Part shown: positions 4,667-13,497 of the stretch, in pieces
Layout of the letters: each line of letters starts with the position of its first letter
Numbering within the stretch: position 1 is the stretch's first letter
From: an uncultured Clostridia bacterium
Lineage (GTDB): Bacteria > Bacillota > Clostridia > UBA1212 > SIG427
Assembly: GCA_945965275.1 (NCBI GenBank)
Contig: CAMFNB010000014.1
Location: 1 to 33,439, forward strand
Reading direction: 5' to 3'
Length of the DNA: 33,439 nt
The notes under the pieces: model-generated
Told to the model about the DNA's origin: nothing
Databases searched by the model: none
What the model saw: the letters and a program-made list of their open reading frames with translations, nothing else
Made by a program: the position numbers and the translations under genes

Positions 4667-5019
4667 ATGTCAAAAGAACAAAGCTCAGCATACGTCAGGC
4701 ATTTCTGTAATTGTGTCAGAAAAAAACAGTCAGCAAAATCACTGTTACGGAGCTTGCAGAACGTGCCATGATCAATAAAGTAACTTTTTATCCGCACTAC
4801 ATAGATATATATACACTTTATACAGAAATAATCAAGGAAGCATGTATGTTCATTTTCGATAAAATTGAAGATTATTCACTGTTCTTCACCGATCCCGAAA
4901 ATGACATAAAACCCGAATGCATTATTTATTCTCTCTTTGTGATAAGACACAGCCATTACGAGAATGATCCGGACACATCTGTCAGAATCATGGCAGATAT
5001 TATCAAAAGAAGTTTTTGA
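4667..5019 (+). pseudogene. TetR-type transcriptional regulator, frameshifted at an A7 run and shortened
   Basis: An ATG at 4667 with GAGGT 6 bases upstream opens a frame beginning MSKEQSSAYVRH, typical of small clostridial TetR regulators. That frame ends at 4771. The rest of the DNA-binding domain (KITVTELAERA then NKVTFYPHY, a recognisable TetR helix-turn-helix) continues in the neighbouring frame from about 4726 to 5019. The switch falls exactly on seven adenines (4720-4726); one extra A, or a -1 slip on A AAA AAA, joins the two parts. Even when joined the product is only about 117 residues against a usual 180-200, so the ligand-binding part is also cut. It faces the ABC exporter and was probably its regulator. 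A functional frameshift cannot be excluded. Confidence 0.7.
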
Positions 5020-5070: not shown

Positions 5071-6405
5071 TTAAAATTTTACCGTTATGTTTGTTCCCTT
5101 ATCCACTTCGCTGTCAATCGAGATTTCCGCTGAATGGATTTCAACAATGTGCTTTACGATTGCAAGGCCGAGTCCTGTGCCTCCGGTATCTCTCGATCTG
5201 CTCTTGTCCACTCTGTAAAAACGTTCAAAAACACGGTTCAGTTGGTCTGCCGGAATTCCGATGCCCGTATCTTTTACCGATATCAAAGGATGTCCGTTTT
5301 CGCTTGTGACATAAACCTGAACGCTTCCGTTTTCCTTATTGTATCGAATTGCATTTTGAAGTAGATTATCAATCATTTCACGAATCAGCCCGCGATCCGC
5401 ACTGACGGTTGCGGATGTTCCGTTGCATGTGATTTCAATGCTTTTCTTTGCAGCCACCGGCAAATACTCGTTTACACACTCTTTTGCCACGGAAAGTAAA
5501 TCAGTCTGCTCATATTTTCTCGGAAGTTCGCTGTGGTCAAGTTCAGACAACTGAATAATATCAGTAACAAGAGACAGCAAACGATCGGCATTATGCCTGA
5601 TTTGTCCGGCAACATGCACTTCGGCATCCTCATCCACCAAATGGTTTTCTATAAGTTCCGCATATCCTGAAATTGCAGTAATCGGTGTTTTAAGTTCATG
5701 CGAAACATTCGCGGTAAAATCCTGCCTGCTTTTTGCTGCTGCCAAAATATTCTCATGCTGACTTCTGATTTTATCTGCAAAGGGTTCGAGTTCTTTATAT
5801 GAATGAACGCTGTTGCCGTCGTCAAGATGTTCAGCCATTTCTTCTATCGGTTTCATCAGTTGTCTCGTAAGCAGATATCCTATCAAAATACATCCGAGAA
5901 GAACAAGCACTATGATTGCCGCAATCACCGGTAATGCCGTAACAAGGACACTGAAGATTGTTCTTGCCTGAGTTGATACACGAAGCACTGTTCCGTTATC
6001 GAGAAGCAGAGCGTAATAGAAGGTGTTCATATTCATTGTGTCTGAACGTCTGATGCTTTCTCCTTCTCCCTTTTCAATTGCCATTTTAATTTCTGGTCTG
6101 TCCAGGTGATTTGAAAGACCGGCTATTGCCATATCATTATCGAACAAAACAGTACCGTCCGCATCTACCCATGTAATTCTGAGATTTCCCGCACTCAGGT
6201 GTTCAAGACTCTTTGCTCCCTCTTTTCCGGAAGTGTACGCATTCTGGAACACCTCTGTTTCCATAAGAAGCTCGGCGTTCTGTCGAAGGTCTTTTTCCAC
6301 CTGTCTCTGAAACAGATTATAATATACAAAAGTTATTCCGATTGTCGTTGTTATGATTGCAATCAACGCAATCATGGCAAGTCTCAGATTTATTTTCTGT
6401 TTCAT
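5071..6405 (-). CDS. phoR: PhoR-like sensor histidine kinase
   Basis: 444 residues, full-length for the family. A transmembrane helix at about 10-30 and a second at about 151-179 enclose a roughly 120-residue extracytoplasmic sensor. The dimerisation and phosphoacceptor motif SHELKTP carries His236. The ATPase domain shows the N box (NLLQNAIRYN), G1 (DTGIGIP), F box and G2 (GGTGLGLAI). The kinase should phosphorylate the response regulator encoded just upstream. The ATG overlaps the regulator stop as ATGA, indicating translational coupling. Location behind a Na+/phosphate symporter gene and beside pst-phoU supports phosphate sensing. The response regulator is not diagnostic alone, so the PhoR name is context-based. 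Confidence 0.88.
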   Translation of the reverse strand: MKQKINLRLAMIALIAIITTTIGITFVYYNLFQRQVEKDLRQNAELLMETEVFQNAYTSGKEGAKSLEHLSAGNLRITWVDADGTVLFDNDMAIAGLSNHLDRPEIKMAIEKGEGESIRRSDTMNMNTFYYALLLDNGTVLRVSTQARTIFSVLVTALPVIAAIIVLVLLGCILIGYLLTRQLMKPIEEMAEHLDDGNSVHSYKELEPFADKIRSQHENILAAAKSRQDFTANVSHELKTPITAISGYAELIENHLVDEDAEVHVAGQIRHNADRLLSLVTDIIQLSELDHSELPRKYEQTDLLSVAKECVNEYLPVAAKKSIEITCNGTSATVSADRGLIREMIDNLLQNAIRYNKENGSVQVYVTSENGHPLISVKDTGIGIPADQLNRVFERFYRVDKSRSRDTGGTGLGLAIVKHIVEIHSAEISIDSEVDKGTNITVKF

Positions 6406-7091
6406 GCTTCTTCACCGCATTCCTTGTCGATTGAATATCCGACACCTCTTATGGTATGAATCTGCTTTCCGCAGTCACCCAGCTTTTGTCTCAGCGTCTT
6501 AATGTGCATATCAACGGTTCTGGTTTCACCTTCAAAATCAACACCCCACACAATGCGCATTATGGAATCCCTTGTCAGAACTATTCCCTCATTTATCATG
6601 AGACATCTGAGAAGTTCATATTCCTTTAATGTGAGGATTACGTTTCTTCCCTCTGCAATTACGGCATGACGCTCATGGTCAAGCATGATATTGCCTACCG
6701 TAAGTTTATCCGGCACTTCTTCCTGTGATCTTCTCAAAAGAGCACGAACTCTTGAAAGAAGTTCCATTACGGAGAAAGGCTTGCGAATATAGTCATCGGC
6801 GCCGTCATCGAGTCCTTTTACCATATCCATTTCCGCTGTCTTTGCGGTTATCATAATAACCGGTGTTTTTCTTGTTTTCGGATTGCTTCGAAGTCTGCGG
6901 ACAATTTTATATCCGTCTTCATCGGGAAGCATAATGTCAAGTAAAACCAAGTCAGGTATGATTTCTTCAAGCTTATCATAGAACGATGCCGCACGGTCAA
7001 ACGCCTGTACCATATAGTTACTGTTTTTAAGAGCCATTATTTCTATTTCACGTATGCTTGCATCGTCTTCAACAATGTAAATCAAAGCCAT
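6402..7091 (-). CDS. phoP: PhoB/PhoP-family response regulator
   Basis: 229 residues of the OmpR/PhoB class. The N-terminal receiver domain has the acidic pair at residues 9-10, the phosphoacceptor Asp52 (in LLDIMLPDEDG), a Thr near 82 (MITAK) and Lys near 104 (RKPF). The C-terminal winged helix (about 130-225) includes the typical LTLKEYELLRCL and RTVDMHIKTLRQKLG segments. It should bind direct-repeat Pho boxes when phosphorylated. The ATG lies directly after the symporter stop with no gap, and AAAGAGG is inside the symporter end. The next gene, the kinase, overlaps by 4 bp. Candidate target boxes occur in front of pstS and in front of this operon. Confidence 0.9.
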   Translation of the reverse strand: MALIYIVEDDASIREIEIMALKNSNYMVQAFDRAASFYDKLEEIIPDLVLLDIMLPDEDGYKIVRRLRSNPKTRKTPVIMITAKTAEMDMVKGLDDGADDYIRKPFSVMELLSRVRALLRRSQEEVPDKLTVGNIMLDHERHAVIAEGRNVILTLKEYELLRCLMINEGIVLTRDSIMRIVWGVDFEGETRTVDMHIKTLRQKLGDCGKQIHTIRGVGYSIDKECGEEA

Positions 7092-8882
7092 TTATATTTC
7101 CTCTTTCTTTTTTGGCAGAACATATTTATTCTTCATGCGAAGGTATTCTTCCCGGAAATGACTGTCCGTACCCTTTGCTTTGTTTTCCGCGTATTTGTGC
7201 ATGTCAAGCTCATCTGCCTGAATCTCTATTAGTGCGGCAGCTATATTCGAACAATGATCGGATACTCGCTCGTAGTTTGTCAGTATATCTTCAAGAAGTA
7301 TTCCGGCTTCCATTGAGCAGTCACCGTTTCTGAGTCTCATAATATGGCGCTGCTTCATCTCGGCCACAAGATCATCAATTACTTCTTCAAGGGGTTCAAC
7401 ATTTGCCGCATTTTTTTCGTCTCCCGCAGAAAATGTTTCCTGCGTCATTACCATTATATCACTTATTGCTGTTTCAAGTGCGTCAAGTTCCTTTCTTCCG
7501 TCACCGGTAAAAGAAAGTCCCTGCTTCTGCATTTTTTCCGCAGCTTCGGTAATGTTTATTGCATGATCGGAAATACGTTCAAAATCACTTATTGAATGCA
7601 GCAGCACTGACAGCATATGACTGTCCTCGGTACTCAGATCCTTTCCGGCGAGTTTTACAAGATACGTGCCGACGGAGTCTTCAAATTTATCCACAAGTTG
7701 CTCAAGTCTTATTACCTCTTTGACCTTATCCTTTGTGTAATTGGAATTCATGTCCAAGGCAATCAGTATTGCCGTTTTTGAATATTCTGCCATTTTAACG
7801 ACCGCATTTCGACAGAGTGAAATGGCAAAGGACGGGGTTTCAAGGAATCGCTCATCTAAAGCCAAAAGCTCCTCAGGGAGGTTTTCCTTATTTTCGGTGT
7901 TCTTTTTGTTTTTAACGGTAAAAGTTGCAAGTGAAACCAGTTTGTTGGCAAACGGGAATAATACGACCGCACAACCTATATTGAAAAGACTGTGTACCAC
8001 TGCAATTCCGGCAGCCCCCACTGTTTCGTTTAAAAACTCAAAATTCACAAAGTGATTTATTGTATAGAAAGCAACCATGAATAAAACGGTGCCTATCAGA
8101 TTAAAGTAAAGATGAATGAATGCTGCTCTTTTTGCATTCTTGTTTGCGCCTACTGATGATATCAAAGCTGTTACGCAGGTTCCGATATTTTGTCCCATTA
8201 TTATCGGTATCGCAGTGCCGTAGCTTACCGCACCGGACAGGCAGAGTGCCTGCAGAATACCAACCGATGCCGAAGAGCTCTGAATAACGGCAGTGAGTAC
8301 TGCACCCGCAATCATTCCCAATATCGGATTCGAGAATGCAGTCAGCATTCCGGTAAATGTGGGATTGTCCTTAAGCGGAGCGACCGCACCGCTCATGGTT
8401 TCCATTCCGAACATCAGAACGGCAAATCCAAGAAGAATGTTTCCGATGGTCTTCTTCTTTGTTCCGTCCTTTCCCGTCATAATGCAGATTATTCCGATTG
8501 CAGCAAGAATCGGAGAGAAAGAACTGGGCTTAAACAATTTCACGAATACGTTTCCGCTGCTGATTCCCGTAAGTGACAGGATCCACGACGTAACCGTGGT
8601 TCCTATGTTTGCGCCCATAATGATGCCGACAGCCTGTGTCAGCTTCATGATTCCGGAGTTTACAAATCCTACCACCATAACGGTTGTTGCAGACGATGAC
8701 TGAATCACCGCGGTAACCATTGTACCTAGCAACAGTGCCATAACTCTTTTCTTTGTCAGTTTTTCAAGTATCTGCTCCAGTCTTCCTCCTGAGAGCATAA
8801 CCAAGCCGTCTCCCATTGTGTTCATTCCGTAAAGGAACAAGGCAAGGCCTCCGATCATGGTTAAAATGCCGAATACATCCAT
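7092..8882 (-). CDS. Na+/phosphate cotransporter with C-terminal PhoU domain
   Basis: 596 residues from the ATG at 8882, chosen because AAAGAGG lies 6 bases before it; an upstream TTG at 8900 has no such site. The membrane part holds the two inverted NaPi-II repeats, each with a QSSSA motif (residues 61-65 and 201-205) and a matching GANIGT or GQNIGT segment. These residues form the sodium and phosphate pathway in the NptA/YjbB family. From about residue 340 to the end is a helical PhoU-like domain, probably regulatory. The protein would import or export inorganic phosphate across the cytoplasmic membrane. It is the first gene of an operon with the regulator and kinase, so the transporter and its likely controllers are co-expressed. 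Confidence 0.93.
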   Translation of the reverse strand: MDVFGILTMIGGLALFLYGMNTMGDGLVMLSGGRLEQILEKLTKKRVMALLLGTMVTAVIQSSSATTVMVVGFVNSGIMKLTQAVGIIMGANIGTTVTSWILSLTGISSGNVFVKLFKPSSFSPILAAIGIICIMTGKDGTKKKTIGNILLGFAVLMFGMETMSGAVAPLKDNPTFTGMLTAFSNPILGMIAGAVLTAVIQSSSASVGILQALCLSGAVSYGTAIPIIMGQNIGTCVTALISSVGANKNAKRAAFIHLYFNLIGTVLFMVAFYTINHFVNFEFLNETVGAAGIAVVHSLFNIGCAVVLFPFANKLVSLATFTVKNKKNTENKENLPEELLALDERFLETPSFAISLCRNAVVKMAEYSKTAILIALDMNSNYTKDKVKEVIRLEQLVDKFEDSVGTYLVKLAGKDLSTEDSHMLSVLLHSISDFERISDHAINITEAAEKMQKQGLSFTGDGRKELDALETAISDIMVMTQETFSAGDEKNAANVEPLEEVIDDLVAEMKQRHIMRLRNGDCSMEAGILLEDILTNYERVSDHCSNIAAALIEIQADELDMHKYAENKAKGTDSHFREEYLRMKNKYVLPKKKEEI

Positions 8883-8952
8883 AAAATACCTCTTTATCAA
8901 TTTTTACAGGCATTATGATAAAGCAGGCATGTAAAGACACTTGGGTTGTTAC

Positions 8953-9019
8953 TGTAAAATGTATGTAAAATTTATATGTTTTACATAAATCTTACGACAA
9001 TACGGTTACAGCTTTTACA
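8953..9019. promoter_or_regulatory. Divergent control region with candidate Pho boxes
   Basis: On the minus strand, facing the symporter operon, TTTTACA occurs at 8970-8964 and again at 8959-8953, giving an 11-bp period with a 4-base spacer. On the plus strand, facing the small gene at 9058, TTTTACA at 8979-8985 is followed at the same period by TCTTACG (8990-8996), and another perfect TTTTACA stands at 9013-9019. Direct repeats with an 11-bp period are the known architecture of PhoB and PhoP sites. I could not assign a convincing -10 for either direction. Confidence 0.6.
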
Positions 9020-9057
9020 TTAAAACCTTATGCTCAATATACAGGAGGACAAATCAT

Positions 9058-9309
9058 ATGAAACGTTTATGGAATTACATTGACAAAAAAGATTGGAATG
9101 CGGAAGCAAAGTTTCATGTTGTAACCCTCATCCTCAGTATTACATCAGCGCTCGTCGGATTTGCATTATGGCAAATCATAAAGCCATGGGCATTATCCAC
9201 AATTGACTGGATGATTTGCTTCACATGCTATCCGGTGTTCTTTTCCTGGGTTGCTGCTTTTTATTATTACTGCAGCCACGATTTTCACGACGGCAAATCC
9301 GCAGATTAA
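9058..9309 (+). CDS. Small two-helix membrane protein of unknown function in the Pho locus
   Basis: 83 residues, not recognised. The ATG at 9058 is preceded by AGGAGG at 9043-9048, an excellent site, so I regard the gene as real although it is the only intact plus-strand gene in this region. The N-terminal 20 residues are charged (KRLWNYIDKKDWNAEAKF). Two hydrophobic stretches follow, about 22-43 and 50-69, then a short polar tail rich in His and Asp (CSHDFHDGKSAD). It is rich in tryptophan and tyrosine. It sits between the symporter operon and phoU, and its end overlaps the phoU stop by 4 bp tail to tail. Pho-box-like heptamers precede it, so expression under phosphate starvation is likely. 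It could modulate a transporter or the kinase, which is speculation. Confidence 0.75.
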   Translation: MKRLWNYIDKKDWNAEAKFHVVTLILSITSALVGFALWQIIKPWALSTIDWMICFTCYPVFFSWVAAFYYYCSHDFHDGKSAD

Positions 9310-9965
9310 TCATACTTATTTTTCTGAGGGTTCTCAGGTGAACAAGAAAAGATAACCCACTCTGCTATGTTTGTTGCATGATCTCCGATACGTTCTAAGT
9401 ACTTGCTTACCATGAGAAGGTCTGCAGCATACTCCGCATTGTTCGGATTATTTTGCATCATTTTTATCAGGTTCGCTTTCACTTCAGTAAACAAAGCATC
9501 CACCACATCATCGTGTTCTATCACTTCGCGTGCCTTTTCCATATCTCTTTCCACATAAGCCTGAACTGCAGAAAGCAGCATTACTATTGTTTCAGCAGAC
9601 ATTCTTCTGACCTGCTCCACATTAAGCATGAACGGGCTCTTGGACATTACGATTGTAAGTTCTGCAATATCAGCCGCATGGTCTCCGATACGTTCCATAT
9701 CAGTAACCATTTTCATGGCCGCTGTTACTGTTCTTAAATCCTTTGCTACCGGCTGCTGCTGAATCAGCAGCTGAAAGCAGATGTTTTCAATCAGTTTTTG
9801 TTCACGGTCAACCAATTCATCATCCTTCATTATCATTCTTGCTTTTACCGTATTCTGACTGAAAAAAGCATCAATGGTATCCTGAATGGCCTTCTGAATC
9901 ATATTGCCCATTGAAATCATTTCATTATTCAGCGTTCTAAGCTGTTCGTCAAATTTGATTCTCAT
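9306..9965 (-). CDS. phoU: Phosphate signalling complex protein PhoU
   Basis: 219 residues, normal length. The protein consists of two similar three-helix bundles. Each contains the characteristic metal-contacting segment, ERIGDHAADIAE in the first half and ERIGDHATNIAEW in the second. PhoU connects the Pst importer with the PhoR kinase and shuts down signalling when phosphate is plentiful. ATG at 9965 has AAAGGAG 6 bases upstream. It is the last gene of pstSCAB-phoU, 11 bp after pstB. The C-terminal domain of the nearby symporter is a second PhoU-like module in the same locus. Confidence 0.96.
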   Translation of the reverse strand: MRIKFDEQLRTLNNEMISMGNMIQKAIQDTIDAFFSQNTVKARMIMKDDELVDREQKLIENICFQLLIQQQPVAKDLRTVTAAMKMVTDMERIGDHAADIAELTIVMSKSPFMLNVEQVRRMSAETIVMLLSAVQAYVERDMEKAREVIEHDDVVDALFTEVKANLIKMMQNNPNNAEYAADLLMVSKYLERIGDHATNIAEWVIFSCSPENPQKNKYD

Positions 9966-9976
9966 TTGTTTCTCCT

Positions 9977-10738
9977 TTATCCGAATCTTCCGGTAATATA
10001 GTCTTCTGTTCTCTTGTCTTCGGGATATGAAAAAATACTTTTTGTGTCACCGAATTCAATCAATTCTCCCAGAAGGAAGAATGCAGTATCGTCTGCAATT
10101 CGCACAGCCTGCTGCATGTTATGTGTAACAGTCACCACTGTGTATTTCTTTTTGAGTTCTTCCATAAGGTCCTCGATTTTTGATGTTGAAATCGGGTCTA
10201 ATGCAGAAGTCGGCTCATCCATCAAAAGAACCTCAGGCTGGACAGCCAATGCTCTGGCAATGCATATTCTCTGTTGCTGTCCTCCTGACAATCCGAGAGC
10301 GGATTTTTTCAGTCGGTCTTTCACTTCTTCAAATATGGCCGCGCCGCGAAGACTCTCTTCAACTATTGCATCCAGTTTTTTCTTATCCTTTATTCCGTGA
10401 ACACGTGGACCGTATGCAATATTGTCGTATATGCTCATGGGAAACGGGTTCGGTTGCTGGAAAACCATTCCGACTTTTTTTCTCAACACTGTTGTGTCAA
10501 CTTCTTTTCCGTAAATGTCTTCTCCGTCAAGAAGGACCTCTCCCTCAATTCGAACATTTTCCACAAGATCATTCATCCTGTTTAATGTTTTCAAAAGAGT
10601 TGATTTACCGCAGCCCGAAGGTCCGATAAGCGCCGTTACCGCATTAGGACGAATTTCCATGTTTATTTCTTTCAGTGCATGGTTGTCTCCGTAATACAGA
10701 TTCAGATTTCGAATGCTCATTTTTGATTTATATTCCAT
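9977..10738 (-). CDS. pstB: Phosphate ABC transporter ATP-binding protein PstB
   Basis: 253 residues from the ATG at 10738, which has AAGAGG about 10 bases upstream; an in-frame upstream start at 10762 would overlap pstA and lacks a site. Walker A ([11 protein letters not shown]), the PstB-type Q-loop ([15 protein letters not shown]), signature ([15 protein letters not shown]), Walker B ([13 protein letters not shown]) and switch His (THNMQQ) are all present. It powers the PstA/PstC channel on the cytoplasmic side. The start is one base past the pstA stop, so the genes are tightly coupled. Confidence 0.97.
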
Positions 10739-10739
10739 T

Positions 10740-11618
10740 TTATTTTTTCCTCTTAACATCAAATTTTACTGCAAGTTTTTTTGTGCCTAAATTAATCAGG
10801 AAGACAAGTATGATTAACACAACTGCAATTCCGAAAGCAGTGTCAAAATCTCCTTCACTGGTTGCGGAAAGATATAACTGAAGTGTCATGGTTCCTCCTG
10901 ACTGAAAAATCTTAGGGAATAAGGCCGCGAAAGTCTTCGGCAATGCCTTCGCACTTCCTGCGGTAAAGAGCAAAGCTGCTGATTCTCCGACAATTCTTCC
11001 TACGGCCAGAATCACACCCGTGATTATTCCTGATATAGACGACGGTAAAAGAATCGTACGAATCGTATGCCATTTGCCGGCTCCCAGTCCGACTGCTCCG
11101 TGTCTGTAGCTGTCAGGTACTGTTTTGAGTGCTTCCTGTGTATTCCTTGTTATAAGCGGGAGCACCATCAGAATTAATGTAAGTGATCCGGTCATTAATG
11201 AATAGCCAAGACCAAGTGTTTGTCCGAAAAACATCATTCCGAAAAGGCCGAATATTACAGAAGGAATTCCGGATAATGTTTCAGTTGCAAACTCCACTGC
11301 GTTTACAAGTTTTCCCGGCTTGGCATATTCATTAAGATAAATTGCTGCGCCCACTCCCAGCGGTGTTGCAATAATCATGGTAATAAAGACTATCATTATC
11401 GTGTTCACTATATTTCCGGCAATGCCCACGGTTCCCTTTCTGACTGATGTCACCGTAGTCAGGAATTCCGGCGTTACACTTTTTATTCCCCGCACGAAAA
11501 CATAAATTATTATTCCCGCAAGAAGTATTACGGATAAAGACGCACACAGGTATATGAGAAAATACATGAACTTGTCTGCCGGTCTTTTTTTAATGCGTGA
11601 CAGTTTTTTCTCATTCAT
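10740..11618 (-). CDS. pstA: Phosphate ABC transporter permease PstA
   Basis: 292 residues from the ATG at 11618. This start is preferred over a GTG at 11627, because AAAGGGA is about 10 bases from the ATG but only about 2 from the GTG. About six hydrophobic helices are visible, with a positively charged N-terminus and the PstA-type cytoplasmic coupling loop ([19 protein letters not shown]). It forms half of the membrane channel. It overlaps pstC by 8 bp. Confidence 0.95.
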
Positions 11619-12516
11619 TTTTCTCACGTCCCTTTCGTATTCTCTGCAGCATCAGATTAATAATCATAATGAAAACATAAAGAACAAGTCCTACTGTAAA
11701 AAGCACCTGTCTGTGTGTTCCCTCCGCGTAACCCATTTCACTTACAATCTGTGTTGTAAGAAAACGAACAGAATTAAACGGAAGCGGAATATTCACTGCT
11801 CCGCCTGCCACCATGTTTATGGCCATTGCCTCTCCGAGCGCTCGTCCGATTCCGAGCGCAACGCCTGTCATGATTCCTGACTTCGCGGCTGGAATCGTAA
11901 CCTTAAATATTGTTTGAATTTTACTTGCACCCAGAGCAAGAGATGCTGCTCTGAGATCCTTTGATACCGCACGTATCGATGATGCACTTACATTAACCAC
12001 AGTCGGCAGAATCATTATCGCAAGTATCAGTATCGCCGAAAGCATATTTGATCCGCCTGTAAAACGATGTGTTTCAGACCCCGCAAAAATCAGTTTTTCA
12101 AGCTTGTACATTGCAGGATTCAAAATCATAAGTCCCAGAAGTCCGTATATTACCGACGGAATTGCTGCAAGCAATTCAATGGCAGGCTGTACTACTGATG
12201 CAAGTTTTCGATTTGCCACTTCTGTCAGGAAAACAGCAGTGAGAAGCGCAATCGGCACACCTATTAAAATGCAGGCTCCTGTTCCGATGACAGAAGAAAG
12301 AATTATATACACAATACCATAGGACGGTTCCGCTGCGGTCGGCTGCCATAATGTTCCGAATAAAAGTTCAGACACTCCGACATTTTTGAATGCCGGAGTG
12401 CCTTTTGCAATCATATAGATTGTTATGGAACAAACTGCAAGTATTGCAACTGCGGCACATATCGCGAACACATATTTTGCTGCGGATTCTCCGATATGTT
12501 TTTTAGGTTTGTTCAT
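11611..12516 (-). CDS. pstC: Phosphate ABC transporter permease PstC
   Basis: 301 residues with about six transmembrane helices. It carries the coupling-loop sequence LRAASLALGASKIQTIFKV and the GIGRALGEAMA segment typical of PstC. It pairs with PstA to form the phosphate channel in the cytoplasmic membrane. The start ATG lies 18 bp after the pstS stop; a purine-rich AGAGGCAGG precedes it. Its stop overlaps the start of pstA. Confidence 0.95.
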   Translation of the reverse strand: MNKPKKHIGESAAKYVFAICAAVAILAVCSITIYMIAKGTPAFKNVGVSELLFGTLWQPTAAEPSYGIVYIILSSVIGTGACILIGVPIALLTAVFLTEVANRKLASVVQPAIELLAAIPSVIYGLLGLMILNPAMYKLEKLIFAGSETHRFTGGSNMLSAILILAIMILPTVVNVSASSIRAVSKDLRAASLALGASKIQTIFKVTIPAAKSGIMTGVALGIGRALGEAMAINMVAGGAVNIPLPFNSVRFLTTQIVSEMGYAEGTHRQVLFTVGLVLYVFIMIINLMLQRIRKGREKNE

Positions 12517-12534
12517 AGCTTACCTGCCTCTGTT

Positions 12535-13389
12535 TTACTGTGGAAGAATTAATCCCAAATCAGAGATTATGCTTTTACCTTCGTCTGATGAAATGAATTC
12601 GAACCATGTTTTTACAAGTTCATTCTGTTCAGACACTTCACCCATTGTTGCCATTACAAACGGTCTTGAGAGAAGATACTTTCCGGCAAGAATGCTTTCT
12701 TCTAAAGCCGGTACACCGTTAAGTGATACGGCATTAACAGTATCGTCAACTACATCAAGAGAAACATATCCGATTGCACCCGGGGTTGATGCAACCTTTG
12801 CAAGAACTGCACCTGTTGAATCAAGTTCCTGAGCATATTGGCATGCATCCTCAATCTTAAGCAATTCTTCAAAAGCACTTCTTGTACCGGAGCCTGCTTC
12901 ACGTCCGATAACAACGATTGCTTCATCATTTCCGCCGAGTTCTTTCCAGTTTGAAATCTCTCCTGTGTATATTGCTGCAAGCTGTTCTGTTGTTAAATCC
13001 TTTGTTGCGTTTTCTTTGTCAGTGATTACTGCAATACCGTCAATTGCAACAACATTTTCTGTTACGCCCTTCTCTTTTTCTCCATCCTTAAGCTCACGTG
13101 ATGCATTTCCGATATCGATACTTCCCTGAGTGAGTGACTCGATTCCTGCGCTTGATCCTGTATACTCAGTTGTTACTGTTACATCCGGATATGCTTCCAT
13201 AAAGCTTTCGCTCATTGCTTCACAAAGCTTTTCCATAGAAGTGGAGCCTGCAAGAGAAATTTTGCCTGATAATTTTGTTGTTTCTTCTGTTTTTCCTTCT
13301 TCTGTTGCACTACCGCAACCTGTTGCAATGCCAGCTGTCATAAGTACTGCCATTCCCACAGCCACTGCTTTCATAATAAATCTTTTCAT
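12535..13389 (-). CDS. pstS: Phosphate-binding lipoprotein PstS
   Basis: 284 residues from the ATG at 13389; the longer frame from 13410 would read through its own AGGAGG. A signal peptide ends in a lipobox-like sequence (GIATGC), so the mature protein should be lipid-anchored outside the membrane at this cysteine. Typical phosphate-contact segments are seen: LAGSTSME, YTGSSAGIE and REAGSGTRSAFEE. It captures phosphate and delivers it to PstC/PstA. It is the first gene of the operon, with a Pho-box-like repeat and promoter upstream and a possible leader hairpin touching its ribosome site. Confidence 0.96.
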   Translation of the reverse strand: MKRFIMKAVAVGMAVLMTAGIATGCGSATEEGKTEETTKLSGKISLAGSTSMEKLCEAMSESFMEAYPDVTVTTEYTGSSAGIESLTQGSIDIGNASRELKDGEKEKGVTENVVAIDGIAVITDKENATKDLTTEQLAAIYTGEISNWKELGGNDEAIVVIGREAGSGTRSAFEELLKIEDACQYAQELDSTGAVLAKVASTPGAIGYVSLDVVDDTVNAVSLNGVPALEESILAGKYLLSRPFVMATMGEVSEQNELVKTWFEFISSDEGKSIISDLGLILPQ

Positions 13390-13399
13390 ATTTAACCTC

Positions 13400-13437
13400 C
13401 TGTGATTCATTAACTTGTTGATCTCTGATGATCACAG
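13400..13437 (-). promoter_or_regulatory. Leader hairpin overlapping the pstS ribosome binding site
   Basis: In the pstS leader CTGTGAT (13437-13431) can pair with ATCACAG (13406-13400) across a 24-base loop. The downstream arm runs directly into the AGGAGG of pstS, so this 7-bp stem would partly mask the site. Loop length makes it weak, and no functional claim is made. Confidence 0.35.
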
Positions 13438-13441
13438 TGAG

Positions 13442-13497
13442 ATTGTATTTTCGGTGTGTAAATTTCAAAACCCGAATGAGGTAAAAAGAAAGTAAAA
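13442..13497 (-). promoter_or_regulatory. pstS promoter region with a Pho-box-like direct repeat
   Basis: On the minus strand TTTTACT (13497-13491) and TTTTACC (13486-13480) are separated by 4 bases, an 11-bp period. The same layout is found before the symporter operon. Downstream, TACAAT (13447-13442) is a likely -10; TTGAAA (13468-13463) is a weak -35 with a 15-bp spacer, as is common for activator-dependent promoters. Confidence 0.6.

Follow-up and report, generated by a model that had tools for sequence, protein, structure and literature searches.

SMP, a small two-helix membrane protein with a three-box Pho-type promoter in gut and rumen Clostridia

The DNA analyzed here (hereafter, the window) is a 33,439-nt stretch of contig CAMFNB010000014.1 from an uncultured Clostridia bacterium. 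It contains a phosphate (Pho) locus in which the gene of a small membrane protein (hereafter, SMP) lies between a symporter-PhoP-PhoR operon and phoU. The features of this locus are as follows:

5071-6405, minus strand: PhoR/PnpS-type sensor kinase (best NCBIfam matches PnpS and PhoR, below cut-off; Pfam HisKA, HATPase_c)
6402-7091, minus strand: PhoP/PhoB-type response regulator (best NCBIfam match PhoB, below the equivalog cut-off)
7092-8900, minus strand: NptA-type Na+/Pi symporter with C-terminal PhoU domain (Pfam Na_Pi_cotrans and PhoU; NF037997 above cut-off)
8915-8970, minus strand: mirror triad of Pho-type boxes toward the symporter (boxes 8964-8970, 8953-8959, and 8930-8936; -10 at 8915-8920)
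8979-8985, plus strand: Pho-type box 1 of the SMP promoter, TTTTACA
8990-8996, plus strand: Pho-type box 2, TCTTACG
9013-9019, plus strand: Pho-type box 3, TTTTACA, near the expected -35 place
9029-9034, plus strand: -10 element TATGCT, 9 nt 3' of box 3, a spacing conserved in the family
9043-9048, plus strand: Shine-Dalgarno sequence AGGAGG of SMP
9058-9309, plus strand: SMP, 83-aa two-helix small membrane protein (ORF, homologues, pN/pS, AF2 hairpin)
9306-9965, minus strand: phoU, convergent with SMP with a 4-nt overlap (TIGR02135 above cut-off)
9977-13410, minus strand: pstS-pstC-pstA-pstB (NCBIfam models above cut-off)
9977-10762, minus strand: pstB
10740-11627, minus strand: pstA
11611-12516, minus strand: pstC
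12535-13410, minus strand: pstS
13442-13497, minus strand: Pho-type triad ahead of pstS

Curated cut-offs were passed by PstB, PstA, PstC, PstS, PhoU, and the symporter, whereas PhoP and PhoR are only best matches below them. A position of the small gene between the symporter-PhoPR operon and an opposite-strand phoU had been claimed in a sequence-only reading of this DNA and is as described; we add that SMP is divergent from the operon and that positions 9306-9309 are common to the convergent SMP and phoU ORFs. This overlap, together with a search of positions 8850-9450 that found no terminator, would suit an explanation in which the protein is incidental and a low-phosphate transcript running antisense into phoU is what counts. 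Such an explanation is exceedingly improbable, given that the SMP protein is under purifying selection (see below) and that most members of its family are not convergent with phoU.

The SMP ORF starts with ATG and encodes 83 residues with two hydrophobic stretches (Kyte-Doolittle 19-mer maxima of ~2.1 and 1.4). These agree with the two long helices (residues 15-41 and 49-73) of a confident AF2 hairpin model (mean pLDDT 89.7, pTM 0.72), which also contains a short helix at residues 2-9. Family members are about 73-112 aa long with two helices, and across 43 of them G34 and Y58 are invariant and W38 is almost so. The motif CFxGYP opens the second helix in the close group, and HxFHxG forms the C-terminal end in the group of the window SMP itself. 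Lysine and arginine average 4.8 at the N-terminus versus 0.8 in the loop, therefore, following the positive-inside rule used for membrane topology, both ends of the protein are probably cytoplasmic. The pN/pS ratio was <1 in all family pairs among those listed, 0.18-0.55 in the closest 14 of all pairs compared, and 0.32-0.61 between the window SMP and 23 relatives, where synonymous sites are near saturation. The ribosome site and the two membrane helices of the sequence-only reading were both recovered, and a non-coding pattern of substitution, which it had named as grounds for rejecting the gene, was not seen. Based on these comparisons, SMP is a real gene, with homologues, purifying selection, and promoter conservation that exceed chance.

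The label 'unrecognised' given to the protein in that reading also holds. The best matches of SMP in Pfam (E = 0.046) and NCBIfam (E = 0.053) lie below a credible level, the best in PHROGs (E = 0.16) is not significant, a PDB fold search returned 13 matches with none at E ≤ 0.001, and a profile search of PDB sequences returned no match. Among 23 members, the best single hits (Pfam: SdpI, E = 3.6e-4; NCBIfam: RhaT, E = 3.5e-4) each came from one member and no family was convincingly shared. The weak Pfam and NCBIfam matches to unrelated membrane families were dismissed as composition effects. Searches of the open-access literature listed no title or abstract start that describes the family. We conclude that the SMP family is real and previously unnamed, and that it occurs in gut and rumen Clostridia.

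The promoter layout of the family is TTTTACA-N4-TTTTACA-N16-TTTTACA-N9-TANNNT, followed by the Shine-Dalgarno sequence and ATG. When the second spacing was left free by ±1 (maximum score 24), the triad was present upstream of all 46 distinct members, within or outside phosphate loci (scores 20-23), and the 7+4 spacing of boxes 1 and 2 was kept in 46/46. None of 200 dinucleotide shuffles matched the own triad score for any of these members, including that of the window, although this test is not fully independent: some of the members are closely related, and the motif had been recognized by eye in almost the same set of sequences. Among 12 members found later, the triad beats all shuffles in ten (scores 18-21) and one has a score of 16 that was reached by 3/200 shuffles; the other (L180) has no triad of its own and lies directly 3' of the symporter on the same strand. 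A stretch resembling GATA or GATTT directly precedes box 3 in many members (e.g., GATAGTAGA-TTTTACA).

Scanning both strands of 2,206,816 bases (fetched loci >5 kb and the window; some loci overlap, so repeats are counted) revealed 147 triads scoring ≥20, of which 75 belong to the symporter, 40 to SMP, 20 to pstS, and 12 to others. These 12 comprise contig-end places with the downstream gene cut off, a PstS-like lipoprotein, a polyphosphate kinase, an HD-domain protein, a calcineurin-like phosphoesterase, a 52-58-aa ORF (L058), and two ORFs in L034 and L047. The 1.53-Mb genome of the window holds four triad sites (≤3 mismatches), ahead of the symporter, SMP, pstS, and an HD-domain gene, compared to none for the reversed control. 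In PMC4415409, the PHO box is described as direct repeats of 7 nt, arranged in 11-nt units ahead of a promoter. The boxes of the SMP promoter have this 7+4 layout, and we therefore take the triad as a candidate PhoP site. Since it stands upstream of SMP members and also at the symporter and pstS, the family is very probably a component of the Pho regulon. The Pho-box-like heptamers previously noted in front of the gene are thus real and more ordered than had been claimed, forming a strictly spaced triad with a -10 element, and the assignment of SMP to the Pho system gains from orthologues inside Pho loci and from a Pho-type promoter kept by members that lie elsewhere. As judged from these sequence features, SMP is very likely a real membrane protein under PhoP control. 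In the intergenic region (8901-9057), the two divergent three-box triads lie within 120 bp, so the symporter and SMP are probably co-activated from one common PhoP region.

Several other genes carry triads of this type. The HD-domain gene (PF01966; L151:1577-2245, plus strand) has its triad in the window's own genome at C4:8636-8691, and a look-alike beside the symporter (L005:1873-2529, plus strand) has a triad with a score of 24; its product is a probable new Pho-regulon phosphohydrolase. A calcineurin-like phosphoesterase (L129:7661-9076, minus strand) with its own triad lies just 3' of an SMP member outside a Pho locus, and a polyphosphate kinase with its own triad (L132:10590-13049, minus strand) lies directly 3' of another member. 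In Floccifex porci, a membrane-type ORF of 52-58 aa (L058:4682-4858, minus strand; triad near 4918, score 22) occupies the same place as SMP in the window, between phoU and the symporter and divergent from the latter. Against the SMP family profile this ORF scores 4 bits, which is not significant, and it may be a shortened homologue or an analogous replacement.

The 83-aa protein alone, used as a query of genome contigs, gave no match; genus, family, and order searches gave none beyond the window's own genome, and a plasmid search gave none. Relatives were revealed only via the symporter neighbourhood. In 80 loci fetched with the symporter, tblastn matches had ≤59% identity and were mostly divergent from and adjoining the symporter, and a 43-member profile placed a relative in at least 26/80, since some loci end before the place of SMP. 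An example is given by contigs in G332 and G724, which have the same lengths as those of L074 and L067 and seem to represent these loci, and in which a member lies just 5' of pstS. The possibility, raised at the outset, that no conserved orthologue exists next to phoU or NptA-type genes was therefore not upheld. Across genomes, SMP was found only in the window's own genome among 31 of its order and in 3/336 of its class (E ≤ 1e-5). A Lachnospiraceae-like family (397 genomes) holds most relatives, with at least 48 matches at E ≤ 1e-3 and at least 41 at E ≤ 2e-7, counts from which some members may be missing. By reading of their loci, the 41 confident members comprise 16 in a Pho locus, one beside polyphosphate kinase, 22 elsewhere, and two that are unplaced (contig end, or a reading frame broken by stops).

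A profile-profile comparison joined a distant clade (L171, L172, L174, L175, L176, L179, L181, L182, and L141) to the core (probability 96.8, E = 2.8e-10), and the hairpin model of this clade is similar but less confident (pLDDT 79.9). Here SMP often lies 3' of a cell-wall amidase and 5' of a sigma-like protein (a ~231-aa sigma-region-like ORF, by eye); the adjoining pair in L172 was scanned with Pfam, which identified Amidase_3+SPOR, and the other loci were judged by eye. Weak profile matches in L183-L186 were rejected, with triad scores of 11-15 that were reached by 138, 200, 185, and 3 of 200 shuffles and, by eye, without a like-sized family ORF; L087/L147, L146, and other weak matches were likewise excluded from the counts.

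These settings bear on the idea that SMP serves the envelope independently during phosphate starvation (e.g., by saving lipids or wall polymers) and is physically unconnected to uptake or sensing. The 22/41 Lachnospiraceae-like members located off Pho genes, nearly all with a Pho-type promoter, are consistent with this, as are the amidase neighbourhood and the single member beside polyphosphate kinase (L132). However, the amidase neighbourhood is limited to one clade, and the closest relatives of the window SMP are nearly all within Pho loci. An envelope role is somewhat unlikely but a serious rival.

We propose instead that SMP probably tunes phosphate uptake or sensing, and our best guess is that it acts in the membrane to modulate the module formed by the Na+/Pi symporter and PhoR. 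Under phosphate starvation, active PhoP would lead to production of the SMP hairpin, whose amphipathic N-terminal segment and two ends would lie in the cytoplasm and whose G/Y/P/G-rich second helix may dock on a partner inside the membrane. The likeliest partner would be the NptA-type symporter with its PhoU domain, whose divergent promoter has the same three-box design. SMP would adjust the activity or stability of the symporter and, via the PhoU domain, the signal reaching PhoR. The full mechanism, a PhoP-induced hairpin acting on the symporter and thereby on the PhoR signal, is a serious but tentative possibility. In support of the symporter as partner, SMP in symporter loci is most often divergent from or adjoining that gene.

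Protein distances were compared in 22 loci and in 10 loci that also hold pst. In the 22 loci, SMP distances correlated with those of the symporter (r = 0.81), PhoR (0.78), and PhoP (0.76), with partial correlations of 0.29, 0.06, and 0.12, respectively. In the 10 loci, the correlation was 0.82-0.86 with symporter, PhoP, and PhoR compared to 0.30 with PhoU, 0.08 with PstB, and 0.17 with PstC; here the partial correlation was 0.03 for the symporter and 0.30 for PhoR, which argues against the symporter. The test, which included a jackknife, is weak, given the relatedness of the loci and the different best partners in the two subsets, so the distances weakly favour the symporter-PhoPR module over Pst/PhoU and, within that module, only slightly favour the symporter. 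The low values for PhoU, PstB, and PstC speak against SMP as an accessory PstSCAB subunit or PhoU partner. Several copies do lie directly upstream of pstS (among them those in G332 and G724) and the window SMP ends within phoU, but the copies upstream of pstS retain their own promoter, and such a role is very unlikely.

Genome-wide occurrence sets limits on all models with a fixed partner, given that the majority of Lachnospiraceae-like members are outside a Pho locus. With only 16/41 inside one, no fixed neighbour points to the symporter alone. The symporter is present in 378/397 Lachnospiraceae-like genomes versus SMP in ~41; therefore, SMP is dispensable for the symporter, and co-occurrence between the two was abandoned as a test. 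The role suggested earlier, in which SMP may regulate the kinase or phosphate transport, is compatible with the neighbourhood and with the weak distance-tree test.

MgrB is a single-helix small membrane protein that acts as a feedback inhibitor of PhoQ and is itself under the control of that two-component system; by description, a comparable arrangement can be proposed for SMP. PhoP-induced SMP would then bind the membrane part of PhoR and damp or prolong the response. SMP very probably belongs to the regulon controlled by that kinase, it lies 3' of phoR in L142 (and in L119/L145, cut by the contig end), and the raw distance correlation with PhoR is high (0.78 in 22 loci, 0.86 in 10). PhoR-type kinases are common, yet SMP is patchy (3/336 class genomes), and the partial correlation is only 0.06 in the 22 loci. 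PhoR-binding small proteins are on record: according to PMC12501420, small DUF1127 proteins (A. tumefaciens, E. coli YjiS) bind PhoR and tune phosphate acquisition. They resemble SMP in small size and in the link to phosphate acquisition, but are often <50 aa, whereas SMP is predicted to be membrane-embedded, has a Pho-type promoter, and has no DUF1127 match (in Pfam for the window protein, and among the best 25 of 33 families for 23 members). We consider direct feedback on PhoR somewhat unlikely but, like the envelope role, a serious rival.

For a modulator of the symporter, the closest parallels are small membrane proteins that adjust transporters, such as MgtS acting on PitA and AcrZ acting on AcrB, as stated in PMC10710835. 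MgtS of E. coli shares with SMP the small size, membrane location, nutrient limitation, and a phosphate symporter as (putative) target. The two differ in length (MgtS: 31 aa; SMP: about 73-112 aa, two helices) and in partner, which is Pit-type PitA for MgtS and, based on neighbourhood and distance correlation, a putative NptA-type symporter for SMP. SCO1846, an uncharacterized membrane protein beside pitA with one third the size of PhoU (PMC13170248), likewise is an unstudied membrane protein adjoining a phosphate transporter gene; compared by description, it neighbours pitA, whereas SMP sits with the NptA-type symporter or pst, and the window neighbour of SMP is a Na_Pi_cotrans + PhoU protein. 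We regard SMP as a new family under Pho control whose putative function is of a familiar type. More tentative still is the wider picture of an undescribed, regulon-locked part of Gram-positive phosphate homeostasis. Here the PhoP-induced hairpin would gate both the NptA-type symporter and its PhoU-domain signalling, would move between loci nearly always with its three-box promoter, and may have been replaced in Floccifex porci by the 52-aa membrane ORF with the same promoter at the same place.

Most accounts of bacterial phosphate control invoke PhoPR, PhoU-type proteins, and transporters of the Pst, Pit, or NptA type. A conserved membrane protein that is unique in sequence and keeps the same promoter wherever it has moved would be an added component in gut and rumen Clostridia, for which we found little literature on the Pho response. 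The triad is specific (four sites in a 1.5-Mb genome) and may serve to predict the Pho regulon in Lachnospiraceae-type genomes; it also sorts true homologues of the small protein from false ones. Whether such a small membrane protein tunes the symporter or the kinase is a question that is testable directly in a culturable relative.
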